From an uncultured Bacteroidales bacterium (lineage in GTDB: Bacteria; Bacteroidota; Bacteroidia; Bacteroidales; Bacteroidaceae), in NCBI GenBank assembly GCA_945836755.1, contig CAMAMB010000002.1:33578-97577 (forward strand): a DNA stretch of 64,000 bases. The letters are read 5' to 3'. Under the pieces are notes generated by a model. It made no database searches. It had not been told where the DNA came from and saw only the letters and a list, made by a program, of their open reading frames with translations. This document shows positions 3,146 to 13,545 of this stretch, piece by piece (the stretch's first letter is position 1; every line of letters begins with the position of its first letter). The translations under genes were made by a program, and so were the position numbers.

Positions 3146-4564
3146 CTACCTGCGCTCCAGACAGACCACATTCTCTACATGATGGGTCTGCGGAAACATA
3201 TCCACAGGCTGCACGGCAGTCACTTGATAGTCCTTGTCCATAAGGGCGAGGTCACGGGCCTGTGTGGCGGGGTTACAGCTCACGTAGACAATACGCCGAG
3301 GACCGGCCGACAGGATGGTGGCTACTACATCGGGGTGCATGCCGGCCCGCGGAGGATCGGTGATGATGACGTCCGGCCGTCCGTGGGTGCGGATAAAGTC
3401 GGCGGTGAGTATATCTTTCATATCTCCGGCATAGAAGGTGGCGTTTTCTATCCCGTTGAGGATGGCATTCTCCTTAGCGTCCTCAATAGCTTCAGGCACA
3501 TACTCGATGCCTATCACCTCGCGGGCGCTCCGAGCCACGAAGTTGGCTATCGTGCCCGTACCGGTATAGAGATCGTACACAAGTTCGTTGCCCGTAAGAC
3601 CGGCAAACGAACGGGCTGTACGGTAGAGTCTGAGAGCCTGCTCCGAGTTGGTCTGGTAGAAGCTCTTGGGCCCCACTTTGAAGCGCAGGTCTTCCATCAC
3701 TTCATATATATAAGGAGTACCGCTATGTACATGCACTTCCAAGTCGCCTATGGTATCGTTACACTTCAAGTTATTGACCCACAACAGCGACGTCACTTCG
3801 GAAAAACTCTCTCGCACATACTCCAGCATGGCCGTAGCCTGAGCCTGTTCTTCGTCGCTGCGGATGCAGAATTGGAACAGGAGCATGACTTCGCCGGTGG
3901 CTGAGGTGCGCAACATGATGCCTCTCAGCAAGCCCACGCCCCCTCTGAGGTCATAGAATGACAGCCCGTGTTCGAGGGCGAAGTTTCTGATGCCTCCTCT
4001 CAGGCGATTGTTGATGTCGTCCATGAGGTGACACTCTTCTATGTCCAATATCTTGTCGAAGGCCCCGGGTATGTGAAAGCCTACGGCGTTCATACAGTCA
4101 AAGGTGACGCCGCTCTCGATTTCTTTCTTGGTGAGCCATTTCTTGTTGCTGAAGCCAAACTCCAGCTTGTTGCGGTAGGCGCGTTGTCTGGCGCTACCGA
4201 TGATAGGCTGCACCTCGGGCAGCTGCACCTTGCCTATGCGGGTGAGGTTGTCCACAACTTGTTTCTGTTTGTAGGCCAGTTGCAGTTCATAGGGGAGGCA
4301 CTGCCATTTGCAACCGCCACACACCCCGAAATGTTTGCAGAAGGGCTGGGCGCGCTGTGGCGACAGGCTGTGAAAGTGCACAGCTTCTGCCTCCGCATAG
4401 CTGTGTTTCTTGCGGGTGAGTTGCAGGTCAACCACATCGCCGGGAACGACGTAGGGCACAAAGACCACCATGTCGCCTACACGTGCCAAGGCTTTGCCTT
4501 CGGCAGCTACGTCGGTGATGGTCACTTGTGGTATGAGGGGGAGGGGTTTACGTTTGCGGGCCAT
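3146..4564 (-). CDS. rlmD: 23S rRNA (uracil-5-)-methyltransferase, RlmD/RumA family
   Basis: TRAM-like N-terminus, CKHFGVCGGCKWQC Fe-S motif, DLYTGTGTIANFVA SAM motif, ITDPPRAGMH and YVSCNPATQARDL motifs. Confidence 0.9.
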   Translation of the reverse strand: MARKRKPLPLIPQVTITDVAAEGKALARVGDMVVFVPYVVPGDVVDLQLTRKKHSYAEAEAVHFHSLSPQRAQPFCKHFGVCGGCKWQCLPYELQLAYKQKQVVDNLTRIGKVQLPEVQPIIGSARQRAYRNKLEFGFSNKKWLTKKEIESGVTFDCMNAVGFHIPGAFDKILDIEECHLMDDINNRLRGGIRNFALEHGLSFYDLRGGVGLLRGIMLRTSATGEVMLLFQFCIRSDEEQAQATAMLEYVRESFSEVTSLLWVNNLKCNDTIGDLEVHVHSGTPYIYEVMEDLRFKVGPKSFYQTNSEQALRLYRTARSFAGLTGNELVYDLYTGTGTIANFVARSAREVIGIEYVPEAIEDAKENAILNGIENATFYAGDMKDILTADFIRTHGRPDVIITDPPRAGMHPDVVATILSAGPRRIVYVSCNPATQARDLALMDKDYQVTAVQPVDMFPQTHHVENVVCLERR

Positions 4565-7849: not shown

Positions 7850-7879
7850 TTTGTAATTCAACCCAAAAGTGTACTTTTG
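7850..7879 (+). promoter_or_regulatory. Bacteroidetes-type promoter for ruvC
   Basis: TTTG (7850-7853), 18 nt, TACTTTTG (7872-7879); matches TTTG-N~19-TAnnTTTG; 20 nt before ATG at 7900. Confidence 0.7.
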
Positions 7880-8568: not shown

Positions 8569-9051
8569 ATGAAGCTATTTCTTGTGCTCTGTCTCTTGTG
8601 TCTGCCCTCGATGGTGAGGGCGCAGGACGTGTTCAATTATGTGCTTGACAATGCCACGCGCGTGGTGAACAGTCCCACAAGCGGTTATACGCAGGCCCAG
8701 ATTGCGCAGTTTAAGCGCACCTCCCTGCTCTACTTGCAAAAGAAAGCCTTTGAGCAGAGCGAGACGGTGGCCACAGACCTTCTTGATACACAAGCCTACT
8801 ATCTGTCAGAGTTCTTGACACTCTTCTTCACGGAGGTAATGAAGGACAAGAAGCAGCCCGAAGCCGTGCGCAAGAACAAGATTTTGCTCTTCATGAATGC
8901 CTCGGTGATGAACCCCATGTGGAACGATACGGACCGCGAGACGACACACGCCTTCATAGACGACAAAGAGAGCATGACGCCTTTCTGTCTCGACACAGAC
9001 TGGCAGAAGGCATACGCGGCCGCTGTCGTCAACTTAGAGTCGCTACGCTGA
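8569..9051 (+). CDS. conserved exported hypothetical protein
   Basis: MKLFLVLCLLCLPSMVRAQ signal peptide; open frame of 160 aa. Confidence 0.65.
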   Translation: MKLFLVLCLLCLPSMVRAQDVFNYVLDNATRVVNSPTSGYTQAQIAQFKRTSLLYLQKKAFEQSETVATDLLDTQAYYLSEFLTLFFTEVMKDKKQPEAVRKNKILLFMNASVMNPMWNDTDRETTHAFIDDKESMTPFCLDTDWQKAYAAAVVNLESLR

Positions 9052-9108: not shown

Positions 9109-9426
9109 ATGTACGACATTCAACTCAACGAAAGCGGCTCGCGCCATCTGTGTGTGACTGACGCCCACATGGCTACGCTCCGCAAGTATAACCTGCTCGA
9201 TGGCCTTGTGGGCAGCACAGGCTTCGTGACAGAGGAAGAGGTGAACAAGCTTCGCCGCCGCGTGGAGGCGCTCACACTCAGTCAAGGCGACGAGGCCAAG
9301 GACCTGCTAAAACTCAGTGCCGATGTAGTCTTCGCTGACAAGCTCAAAGCCTTCGGACTAAAGCACCTGCTTGAAGCCTTCCGGCAATACTGCGCCACGA
9401 CGCCTGTCGAAAGCGAAGAAGCGTAG
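9109..9426 (+). CDS. hypothetical protein (105 aa)
   Basis: Open frame with ATG, co-directional with neighbours. Confidence 0.55.
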   Translation: MYDIQLNESGSRHLCVTDAHMATLRKYNLLDGLVGSTGFVTEEEVNKLRRRVEALTLSQGDEAKDLLKLSADVVFADKLKAFGLKHLLEAFRQYCATTPVESEEA

Positions 9427-9546
9427 ACGCTCCGCCGCCCACAAAGGGTGACTAAGAACGCCGTAAGAGAAGGAAGGAACGCAGACCTCTCCGCCGTACG
9501 CCCCAGCTGCCACCCCCGCCCGTACAGACATAGACACGCCCCGCCC

Positions 9547-12500
9547 ATGCCACAGCCCCACCAATATCAGCTATCAGACTTTATCCCCACCACGCAGAAG
9601 GAAATGAAACTGCGAGGCTGGGAGCGAGCAGACGTGATATTCTTCTCCGGCGATGCCTACGTAGACCACCCTTCGTTCGGGGTGGCGGTGCTGGCACGCC
9701 TCTTAGAGGCAGAGGGACTGCGTGTGGCCATCGTGCCACAACCATCGTGGCACGGCGACCTACGCGACTTCAGGCGCTTAGGACGTCCGCGCCTTTTCTT
9801 TGCCATAGCGCCGGGCTGCATGGACTCCATGGTCAACAAGTATACAGCCAACCGACGCCTGCGCAGCGAGGACGCGTATAGTCCGGACGGCAGGCACGAC
9901 ATGAGGCCGGAGTATCCCACCATCGTCTATACCCACATACTGCGTGAGCTCTATCCCGATACGCCGGTAGTAATCGGCGGCATAGAAGCCTCGCTCCGAC
10001 GGCTGACACACTACGACTACTGGAAGGGCGAGCTACGCCCCTCGATACTGACCGACTCAGGGGCCGATCTCCTGATCTACGGCATGGGCGAGGCTCCGCT
10101 CACCGACCTGTGCACCCTGCTCAACGACACGCTCGAAAGTTACGCCACGGCAGCTGACACGATGACCAAGAACGACACGAACGGGGAAGAAGGCGGCGAA
10201 GTCAGCATGACACGCAGCCTCTTTCGGAACGCCATCAGCCGTGTGGCCATACGTCAGACAGCTACTCTCGAGACACGCGACAGCATACGAGGCGGCATAC
10301 GCGGAGACGACATCCTGCTACACAGCCACGAAGTCTGCCTGAAAGACCGCAAGCGCTACGCCGAGAACTTCAAACACATAGAGGAAGAAAGCAATAAATA
10401 TGAGGCAAGTCGCCTCATTCAGCAGGTGAGGGAACAGTATATAGTGGTCAATCCGCCCTACCCGCCTATGACAACAGGACAGATAGACCGCGCCTACGAC
10501 CTTCCCTACACACGCCTTCCCCACCCTAAGTATAAAGGTAAGCGCATACCGGCCTACGAAACCATCAAATACTCCGTCACCCTTCATCGCGGGTGCTTCG
10601 GCGGCTGCGCCTTCTGCACCATCTCCGCCCACCAGGGCAAGTTTATCATGTCACGCTCCAAAGAAAGCATTCTGCGCGAAGTGGAGGCCGTGACACGCAT
10701 GGAAGGCTTCAGCGGCAACCTCTCAGACCTGGGCGGACCGTCAGCCAACATGTACAGAATGGGAGGAAAAGACACCACGCTGTGCAGAAAATGCAAACGC
10801 CCCTCATGTATTCACCCCGCCATCTGTCCCAACCTGCACGCCGACCATCGGCCGCTGACAGACATCTACCGCGCCGTCGACGCCCTGCCACAAGTGCGCC
10901 ACAGCTATATAGGAAGCGGCGTGCGCTATGACCTCCTGCTGGCCGACTATAAAGATCCTGCCCTGAAGAAGGCAGCCCGCGACTACACGGAAGAACTCAT
11001 CTGCCACCACGTCTCAGGCAGGCTGAAGGTGGCACCGGAACACACCTCGCCCAAGGTGCTGGAGTTGATGCGGAAGCCCTCGTTCGACCTTTTCAAACAA
11101 TTCAAGACGGTCTTTGACACCATCTGCCGCAAAGCCGGACTGCGCCAGCAAATCATTCCCTACTTCATCTCCTCACATCCGGGCTGCACCGCCGAAGACA
11201 TGGCAGAACTGGCTGCCATCACCAAGCACTTAGACTTCAAGCTGGAACAGGTGCAGGACTTCACGCCTACCCCCATGACTGTGGCAACTACCACCTGGTA
11301 CGCGGGTTATCACCCCTATACCCTCCGCCCCGTATGGTCGGCCCACTCCCCTACTGACAAACTCAAGCAACGTATGTTCTTCTTCTGGTATAAAGCCGAT
11401 GAGCGGAAACGCATCATGGCTGAACTCAAACGCATAGGCCGCACCGACCTGATTGGCAGGCTGTTCACCCTGCTCACCCTTGCTCTGACGGGCATGGCTG
11501 CCCTGTCACCAAACGTCCTCATGGCACAGAGCGCACACAACGAACCCACCACAGCCCTCCAGGCAGCCATACGCCATGTAGATTACGGTATGGAAAGCCG
11601 CGTCACAGCCACCGACGGCGAGACACCACTATGGCTCTCAGCCAACAGATACGGTCTCTCAGGGGTGGAATACGCCAACGGCTACCTCAGACTACAAGCC
11701 GGACACAGGGCGGAGAACGACAGCCTGCGCAAATGGCGCATAGGATGGAGAGCTGACGTGGCAGCCACCTACGGAATGTCGGCCCCCTTCGTCATACAGC
11801 AGCTATACACCGACATTGACTATCGCGCCCTCCGCCTCACCATCGGAGCCAAGGAGGAACCTATGCAGCTGAAGAACAACCTGCTCAGTAGCGGCAGTCA
11901 GACAATGGGCATCAACGCACGCCCCATGCCCAACATACGCATCGCACTACCTGAATATCTGAGCCTTACCGGAAAATCAGACTGGGTGGCCATCAAGGGA
12001 CACTTTGGCTATGGCATGCTGACGGACGGCGGCTTCCAGAAAGATTATTGTGCTATGGACGCCAAACGCACAGAGAAGGTGCTCTACCACACCAAGGCCG
12101 GCTACCTACGCATAGGCAACGAGAAGAAATTCCCCCTCTCCTTCGAAGGCGGCCTCGAATGGATGACCTACTTCGGAGGCACAGCCTACATTACAGGCTC
12201 TGTGGGCGGCATAGGCAGCAAGTTGGAGATGCCACAGCGCCCGAAGGACTTCTTTGACGCCATATTCGGCCTCGGCGGTGATGCCACCGACGGTGATGGC
12301 TATGCCAACGCCACCGGCAACACCGTAGGTAGCTGGATTTTCCGACTGAACTATAAGGCCAACAACTGGCGGGCAAGCATCTACTTGGACCATTTCTTTG
12401 AAGACCACTCGCAGATGTTCTTCGAATATGGATGGCTGGACGGCCTCCTTGGCGCAGAAGTGGAGCTACCTCAGAACCCCTTCGTAAGCACCATCGTGTA

Positions 12501-12993
12501 CGAGTTTTTGAAGACCACCTACCAAAGTGGGCCTGTATACCACGACCATACGGCTGCCATACCGGACCAAATTAGTGGAGCCGACAACTACTATAATCAC
12601 AGTATCTATCAAGGTCACCAGCACTGGGGACAAGCTGTGGGCAACCCACTGTACACTTCGCCGCTGTACAGGCACGATGGCACACTCGCCTTCTCCGACA
12701 ACCGTTTCATAGCTCACCACATCGGCCTCATGGGGCAACCGACTGCTTCATTGTCTTACCGCCTGCTCTACAGCCACGAACGCAGCCATGGCACCTACCC
12801 TGCCCCACATCTGACGGCCCGACACACAGACAGCTTCCTTATAGAAACAACGTGGCGCCCACAAAAGCCCATCAAACACATTGGTGACGGCTGGGAATGC
12901 GGCCTTGCACTTGGTATGGACCGCGGCAATCTCATTGGCAACAACTTCGGCCTCAGCCTACACATCGTGAAACGCGGTATGCTTATCAGATAA
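9547..12993 (+). CDS. YgiQ-family radical SAM protein read in frame into a capsule-assembly Wzi-like outer-membrane protein
   Basis: N-terminal part: MPQPHQYQLSDFIPTTQKEMKLRGWERADVIFFSGDAYVDHPSFG, GCFGGCAFCTISAHQGK (CxxxCxxC). After ELKRIGRTDLIGRLF a signal-peptide-like TLLTLALTGMAALSPNVLMAQ leads into a Wzi-type barrel sequence with no stop. ATG at 9547 preferred over track start 9448. Confidence 0.8.
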   Translation: MPQPHQYQLSDFIPTTQKEMKLRGWERADVIFFSGDAYVDHPSFGVAVLARLLEAEGLRVAIVPQPSWHGDLRDFRRLGRPRLFFAIAPGCMDSMVNKYTANRRLRSEDAYSPDGRHDMRPEYPTIVYTHILRELYPDTPVVIGGIEASLRRLTHYDYWKGELRPSILTDSGADLLIYGMGEAPLTDLCTLLNDTLESYATAADTMTKNDTNGEEGGEVSMTRSLFRNAISRVAIRQTATLETRDSIRGGIRGDDILLHSHEVCLKDRKRYAENFKHIEEESNKYEASRLIQQVREQYIVVNPPYPPMTTGQIDRAYDLPYTRLPHPKYKGKRIPAYETIKYSVTLHRGCFGGCAFCTISAHQGKFIMSRSKESILREVEAVTRMEGFSGNLSDLGGPSANMYRMGGKDTTLCRKCKRPSCIHPAICPNLHADHRPLTDIYRAVDALPQVRHSYIGSGVRYDLLLADYKDPALKKAARDYTEELICHHVSGRLKVAPEHTSPKVLELMRKPSFDLFKQFKTVFDTICRKAGLRQQIIPYFISSHPGCTAEDMAELAAITKHLDFKLEQVQDFTPTPMTVATTTWYAGYHPYTLRPVWSAHSPTDKLKQRMFFFWYKADERKRIMAELKRIGRTDLIGRLFTLLTLALTGMAALSPNVLMAQSAHNEPTTALQAAIRHVDYGMESRVTATDGETPLWLSANRYGLSGVEYANGYLRLQAGHRAENDSLRKWRIGWRADVAATYGMSAPFVIQQLYTDIDYRALRLTIGAKEEPMQLKNNLLSSGSQTMGINARPMPNIRIALPEYLSLTGKSDWVAIKGHFGYGMLTDGGFQKDYCAMDAKRTEKVLYHTKAGYLRIGNEKKFPLSFEGGLEWMTYFGGTAYITGSVGGIGSKLEMPQRPKDFFDAIFGLGGDATDGDGYANATGNTVGSWIFRLNYKANNWRASIYLDHFFEDHSQMFFEYGWLDGLLGAEVELPQNPFVSTIVYEFLKTTYQSGPVYHDHTAAIPDQISGADNYYNHSIYQGHQHWGQAVGNPLYTSPLYRHDGTLAFSDNRFIAHHIGLMGQPTASLSYRLLYSHERSHGTYPAPHLTARHTDSFLIETTWRPQKPIKHIGDGWECGLALGMDRGNLIGNNFGLSLHIVKRGMLIR

Positions 12994-13056
12994 CGCCCAC
13001 ATAACCGGATACCATCTACTCCCCACATTCAGCGACATACCTTTATACTCCTCACC

Positions 13057-13545
13057 ATGACCAAGAACTTGACATTCATCCTCTTAACACTGCTGCTCAC
13101 CGCCTGCGGCAAGCTGCCGAGCAATGGAGACCTCGATGGAAAGTGGATGCTCACCGCACAATATACCAAGCCCTCAACCGACTCCCCCACATACAGCGAC
13201 TACACGGACAAACGCGATACGGGCATCAGCTGGAACGTCCAGCTTGACCTCCTGTCTATCACAGCCCCCGTTCCCCTCCATGAAGATACCTCAGAGTTGC
13301 AACTCGGTAAGTCGCACGAGGTGGTTTGTCGTTTCAACCATGAGGGTTCGACGTTGCGCCTTACCCAAATCTTCTGGCACTATAGGGCCCACGACATAGC
13401 CATCACCCCGGAGGAACTGGAAACCTCACCCCTGTCCATCGTAGGCATTCACCAAGGCGGTACAGACTTCCAGGTCCTTCAGCTCAGCAGCAAGCGCATG
13501 GTGCTCTGCTCCGAGACCGACAGCCTCATATTCAAGAAGATATAA
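13057..13545 (+). CDS. lipoprotein, lipocalin-like
   Basis: [18 protein letters not shown] lipobox followed by [11 protein letters not shown]. Confidence 0.65.

Follow-up and report, generated by a model that had tools for sequence, protein, structure and literature searches.

The FbcH protein of Bradyrhizobium japonicum is reportedly made as a cytochrome b/c1 precursor that is cleaved at an internal signal peptide. The locus described here shares with FbcH a single bacterial open reading frame for two proteins and, if cleaved as predicted, would also share their separation at an internal signal peptide. The two systems differ in their products: those of FbcH reside in one inner-membrane complex, whereas the frame analyzed here encodes what would be a soluble cytosolic enzyme of the YgiQ radical-SAM family and an outer-membrane barrel of the Wzi type, which have no known common task and for which cleavage is predicted. 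The fbcH gene is listed as encoding a cytochrome b/c1 subunit (PMC12456017). Literature searches turned up no description of a fusion between YgiQ and Wzi.

We analyzed a window of 64,000 nucleotides from an uncultured Bacteroidales bacterium (genome G000), in which the fused gene sits in a ruvC-ygiQ-glyA neighborhood (Table 1). The plus-strand frame is open from 9427 to 12993, with the ATG at 9547 as its likely start, and this one uninterrupted frame encodes two complete proteins, YgiQ and then a Wzi-type barrel, both in this genome and in a second species of the same genus (G049). A sequence-only reading of the window had described an in-frame fusion of these two parts, and that description holds: TIGR03904 and PF14052 both match within the one frame, and the second species has the same fused frame. 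The protein families, gene content and promoter type point to membership in the Bacteroidales. Two small genes lie between ruvC and ygiQ (8569–9051 and 9109–9426); neither has a Pfam match, and their order is kept in G049.

Table 1. Features of the ygiQ-wzi locus, in window coordinates.
Feature	Position	Strand	Basis or remark
Perfect Bacteroidetes-type promoter, TTTG-N18-TANNTTTG	7850..7879	+	Upstream of ruvC
Fused ORF ygiQ-wzi	9547..12993	+	1148 aa plus stop; in-frame GTG at 9448 also open
YgiQ radical-SAM part, residues 1–640	9547..11466	+	TIGR03904, PF08497, genus homologue tails, AF2
Radical-SAM cluster motif CFGGCAFC (CxxxCxxC), residues 350–357	10594..10617	+	Intact; intact in G049 too
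Candidate internal start, in-frame ATG (Met624)	11416..11418	+	Met at aligned G049 position too
Signal-peptide-like hydrophobic core and cleavage site (TLLTLALTGMAALSPNVLMA, then Q), residues 641–660	11467..11526	+	Hydropathy; Q-rule
Wzi-type outer-membrane barrel, residues 661–1148, predicted mature N-terminus Gln661	11527..12990	+	PF14052; AF2 barrel
Lipocalin_8 (PF16585) lipoprotein	13057..13545	+	Common downstream partner of wzi in family; same order in many relatives

The match to TIGR03904 (NCBIfam SAM_YgiQ) spans residues 12–612 and model positions 1–557 of 558, scoring 756 bits against an equivalog cut-off of 462, and PF08497 matches the same part with 402 bits. In the AF2 model the fold is confident to about residue 640, where a block at a pLDDT of about 90 is found. 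YgiQ cores in the genus end at [RK]-L-[FY] where the terminal helix is present, and by these matches the YgiQ part is a complete radical-SAM family member up to that conserved end. It resembles the TIGR03904 family in having the whole domain and an intact cluster motif, and differs from it in that the family tail is replaced by a putative signal-peptide core and the barrel. The YgiQs of two relatives (G010, L019; G009, L020) end early in a basic tail and lack the terminal helix, so this helix seems dispensable.

The second part matches PF14052 (Pfam Caps_assemb_Wzi) over residues 715–1035 with 48.3 bits against a gathering cut-off of 30.1. Modelled alone with AF2, the barrel reaches a pLDDT of 82.7, and its best fold match in the PDB is Wzi of E. 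coli (2YNK; E 2.9e-12, TM 0.54/0.63). That match came from the fold search; a search of solved structures by sequence with the barrel profile returned nothing at 0.001. By profile and predicted fold, the part is a Wzi-type protein, predicted to reside in the outer membrane. It shares with Wzi, a capsule-associated outer-membrane protein, the Pfam match, the best fold match and the usual lipocalin gene downstream, and differs in lacking its own start codon and signal-peptide n-region, both of which ygiQ would supply. The wzi-lipocalin pair may work together.

The fused gene of G049 (L059, 2427–5759) lies mid-contig, comprises 1138 codons from its first start codon and occupies the same locus, in the order ruvC, two small genes, ygiQ-wzi, lipocalin and glyA. 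Because a second species carries the same fused frame at the same locus, we conclude that the frame is real and not open by chance. The two fused chains are 66% identical end to end, synonymous sites between them are saturated (pS about 0.7, dS about 1.9–2.5), and neither contains a stop or frameshift. A sequencing or assembly error that deleted a stop, the alternative offered by the sequence-only reading, is a conceivable product of an incomplete assembly in many contigs, such as that of G000 (84.8% complete, 94 contigs), and is hardly credible here: the independent G049 has the same open fusion despite saturating synonymous divergence, which refutes an error unless the same one arose in both assemblies. 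The earlier reading had also asked whether relatives would show a stop or frameshift between the parts. The fused frame is absent from 56 of the 58 genus genomes, where all ygiQ and wzi copies examined are separate genes; G049, the only relative with the same arrangement, is open as well.

Between the two species YgiQ has a dN of 0.25 and the barrel one of 0.35, values that, set against the synonymous divergence, indicate purifying selection on both halves. This bears on the proposal that the fusion disabled either YgiQ or the barrel and that the other half alone has been kept, for which it can be said that neither the usual tail of YgiQ nor the start of Wzi survived the fusion. Such a loss is improbable given selection on both halves across saturating synonymous divergence, a CxxxCxxC motif that is intact in both species, and the status of both parts as sole copies: apart from the fused gene, neither genome has a ygiQ that scores over the cut-off or a wzi (G000 85% complete, G049 96%).

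Inspection of the junction revealed how the two parts are joined. Past [RK]-L-[FY], unfused YgiQs of the genus carry a variable basic tail and then a stop, whereas both fused proteins run from RLF straight into a hydrophobic stretch. The most hydrophobic 19-residue window of the whole chain (residues 635–653) overlaps residues 641–660, and the counterpart segment in G049, VFLAALSLTATSSLQA, likewise overlaps the most hydrophobic window of its chain; both segments end in Ala followed by Gln. Bacteroidetes characteristically carry a Gln just past the signal peptidase I site (the Q-rule; PMC5837995), and this residue is common there among unfused Wzi homologues. AF2 of the full chain gives the YgiQ fold to about residue 640, low confidence over residues 649–693, and then the barrel. 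What the fusion lost is the variable basic YgiQ tail together with the Wzi start and n-region; the hydrophobic core and Ala-Gln site were kept, and a basic YgiQ helix now precedes the core. These losses support the earlier suggestion that the genes fused by deletion, and the YgiQ terminal helix sits at the position expected of an n-region, in line with the proposal that the YgiQ C-terminus doubles as part of a signal peptide. The same reading had pointed to an RLF-coding microhomology; an R-x-F junction is possible (two fused sequences were compared), since the wzi of a third species, G073, begins MRPF. Where an FbcH-type precursor has its internal signal peptide, the chain described here has a candidate for one, a hydropathy peak and Ala-Gln motif kept in both species.

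We favor the explanation that the fused gene encodes a precursor of two proteins, which signal peptidase I splits at this putative internal signal peptide, and assign it a probability of roughly 0.55. The long protein is probably split to send its halves to different places in the cell, with an ordinary signal peptidase the most likely agent. YgiQ would fold in the cytosol; its basic last helix and the hydrophobic segment that follows would together form an internal Sec signal, the helix being the n-region; signal peptidase I would cut between A660 and Q661; and the barrel would proceed to the outer membrane, leaving YgiQ with a hydrophobic tail of roughly 20 residues that may be membrane-anchored or trimmed. 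The fuller version of this scheme, a two-compartment polyprotein in which cleavage yields a cytosolic, tail-anchored radical-SAM enzyme plus an outer-membrane barrel and the last YgiQ helix doubles as n-region, we put at about even odds. The sequence-only reading held that the two parts could not work as one chain; this premise overlooked post-translational cleavage, which would separate them without an internal start. We consider very improbable a single uncut functional chain, in which YgiQ would stay attached to a barrel inserted in the outer membrane or the whole fusion would be retained at the inner membrane. No stop separates the parts and the hydrophobic segment could serve as an uncut anchor, but the Ala-Gln cleavage site is kept in both species, and it is implausible that a barrel which crosses the periplasm to the outer membrane would remain linked to an Fe-S enzyme folded in the cytosol.

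Cleavage faces points of its own. A signal peptide behind a folded domain of 640 residues is unusual, the cut would leave a hydrophobic tail on YgiQ, and the Met624 common to both species, together with a favorable ATG in G049 (L059 4239), is what internal initiation needs. In that alternative, translation of the barrel would begin at a separate start within ygiQ (ATG 11416; in G049, L059 ATG 4221 or 4239), the YgiQ terminal helix would again double as signal-peptide n-region, and full-length translation would yield a YgiQ that carries the barrel as its tail. An in-frame ATG does stand at 11416, and its translation reads MAELKRIGRTDLIGRLFTLLTLALTGMAALSPNVLMAQ as had been claimed. The two fused genes share Met624; the closest unfused YgiQs (G021 and G014) have Ile, and just 3 of 18 unfused genus YgiQs have Met at this position. 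The ATG also has an A at −3, a feature that favors initiation in Flavobacterium, a Bacteroidetes genus (PMC6847099), and the G049 ATG at 4239 lies in an A-rich, unstructured context (−1.5 kcal/mol). The context of ATG 11416, on the other hand, is structured: its −15.1 kcal/mol resembles the average internal ATG (−13.7) and not the mean over window starts, −8.1; about 22% of window starts are as structured, and the comparison is noisy because those starts were first-ATG calls. Nor does either species have an internal promoter match: no site of the type in Table 1, at up to 2 mismatches, occurs within 11000–11416, and no promoter-like site occurs in the last 400 bases 5′ of the G049 counterpart of that ATG. 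The promoter upstream of ruvC likely drives the whole run from ruvC through ygiQ-wzi to the lipocalin gene.

Internal initiation would also leave every completed YgiQ chain still carrying the barrel. A ribosome that reaches the end of YgiQ meets no stop and goes on to translate the barrel, and we therefore favor the split precursor; cleavage is the reading that deals with the fused chain itself. Internal initiation as the main source of the barrel we regard as possible but distinctly less probable. Part of the barrel may also arise from internal starts, and both mechanisms can coexist.

We looked for fusions in 58 genomes of the genus, 400 of the family and 393 of the order. No third fusion was present among the 58, and none other in the 400, where the best unfused protein scores 1068 bits and the fused ones 1712 and 2726; another family fusion would have shown, since fused chains would outrank unfused ones in score. 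None was found in the order genomes at E up to 1e-280, a level at which a weak, distant fusion could escape. Three long frames were rejected as fusions: that of G205 (927 codons) is hflX beside wzi with a stop between, and those of G294 (802 codons) and G054 (950) are chance-open or rny-overlapping frames and not ygiQ. In G205, which belongs to another genus, wzi lies directly behind hflX, 6 bases apart (L061, 1268–4048). In each of the gene trees the two fused sequences group as sisters (YgiQ 91/86, Wzi 100/97) and, with no third fusion found, a single fusion event in the ancestor of G000 and G049 appears to account for them.

In most relatives wzi lies behind rny, and a Lipocalin_8 lipoprotein gene commonly follows it across the family (window 11527–13545; L031, L036, L047, L070–L073). 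G073 has wzi and lipocalin behind ygiQ as separate genes, with the ygiQ stop overlapping the wzi start as ATGA. This arrangement is a likely, or at least possible, intermediate toward the fusion; it could instead be an independent move, because the G073 YgiQ is not established as sister to the fused pair. G073 holds two full wzi-lipocalin copies, one ATGA-coupled to ygiQ (L064, C17) and the other elsewhere (L080, C16). In the simplest history, the wzi-lipocalin pair would have been relocated from behind rny to behind ygiQ; ygiQ and wzi would then have become translationally coupled, as still seen in G073; and one deletion in the ancestor of G000 and G049 would have joined them in frame, taking out the end of ygiQ (basic tail and stop) as well as the beginning of wzi (start and n-region). 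We infer this order of events from the observed gene orders, sequences and trees. Judging by gene order, wzi has been relocated beside a housekeeping gene on more than one occasion.

Software for gene calling and function prediction will place a chain of this kind in the wrong compartment. If the precursor is split as proposed, it would represent a natural Sec signal peptide acting behind a folded cytosolic domain of 640 residues, in a family whose genes are normally separate. It would show a coupled gene pair turning into a precursor protein without loss of either product, and would offer a clean system in which to learn at what distance from the N-terminus a bacterial signal peptide still works, as against the use of nested in-frame starts.
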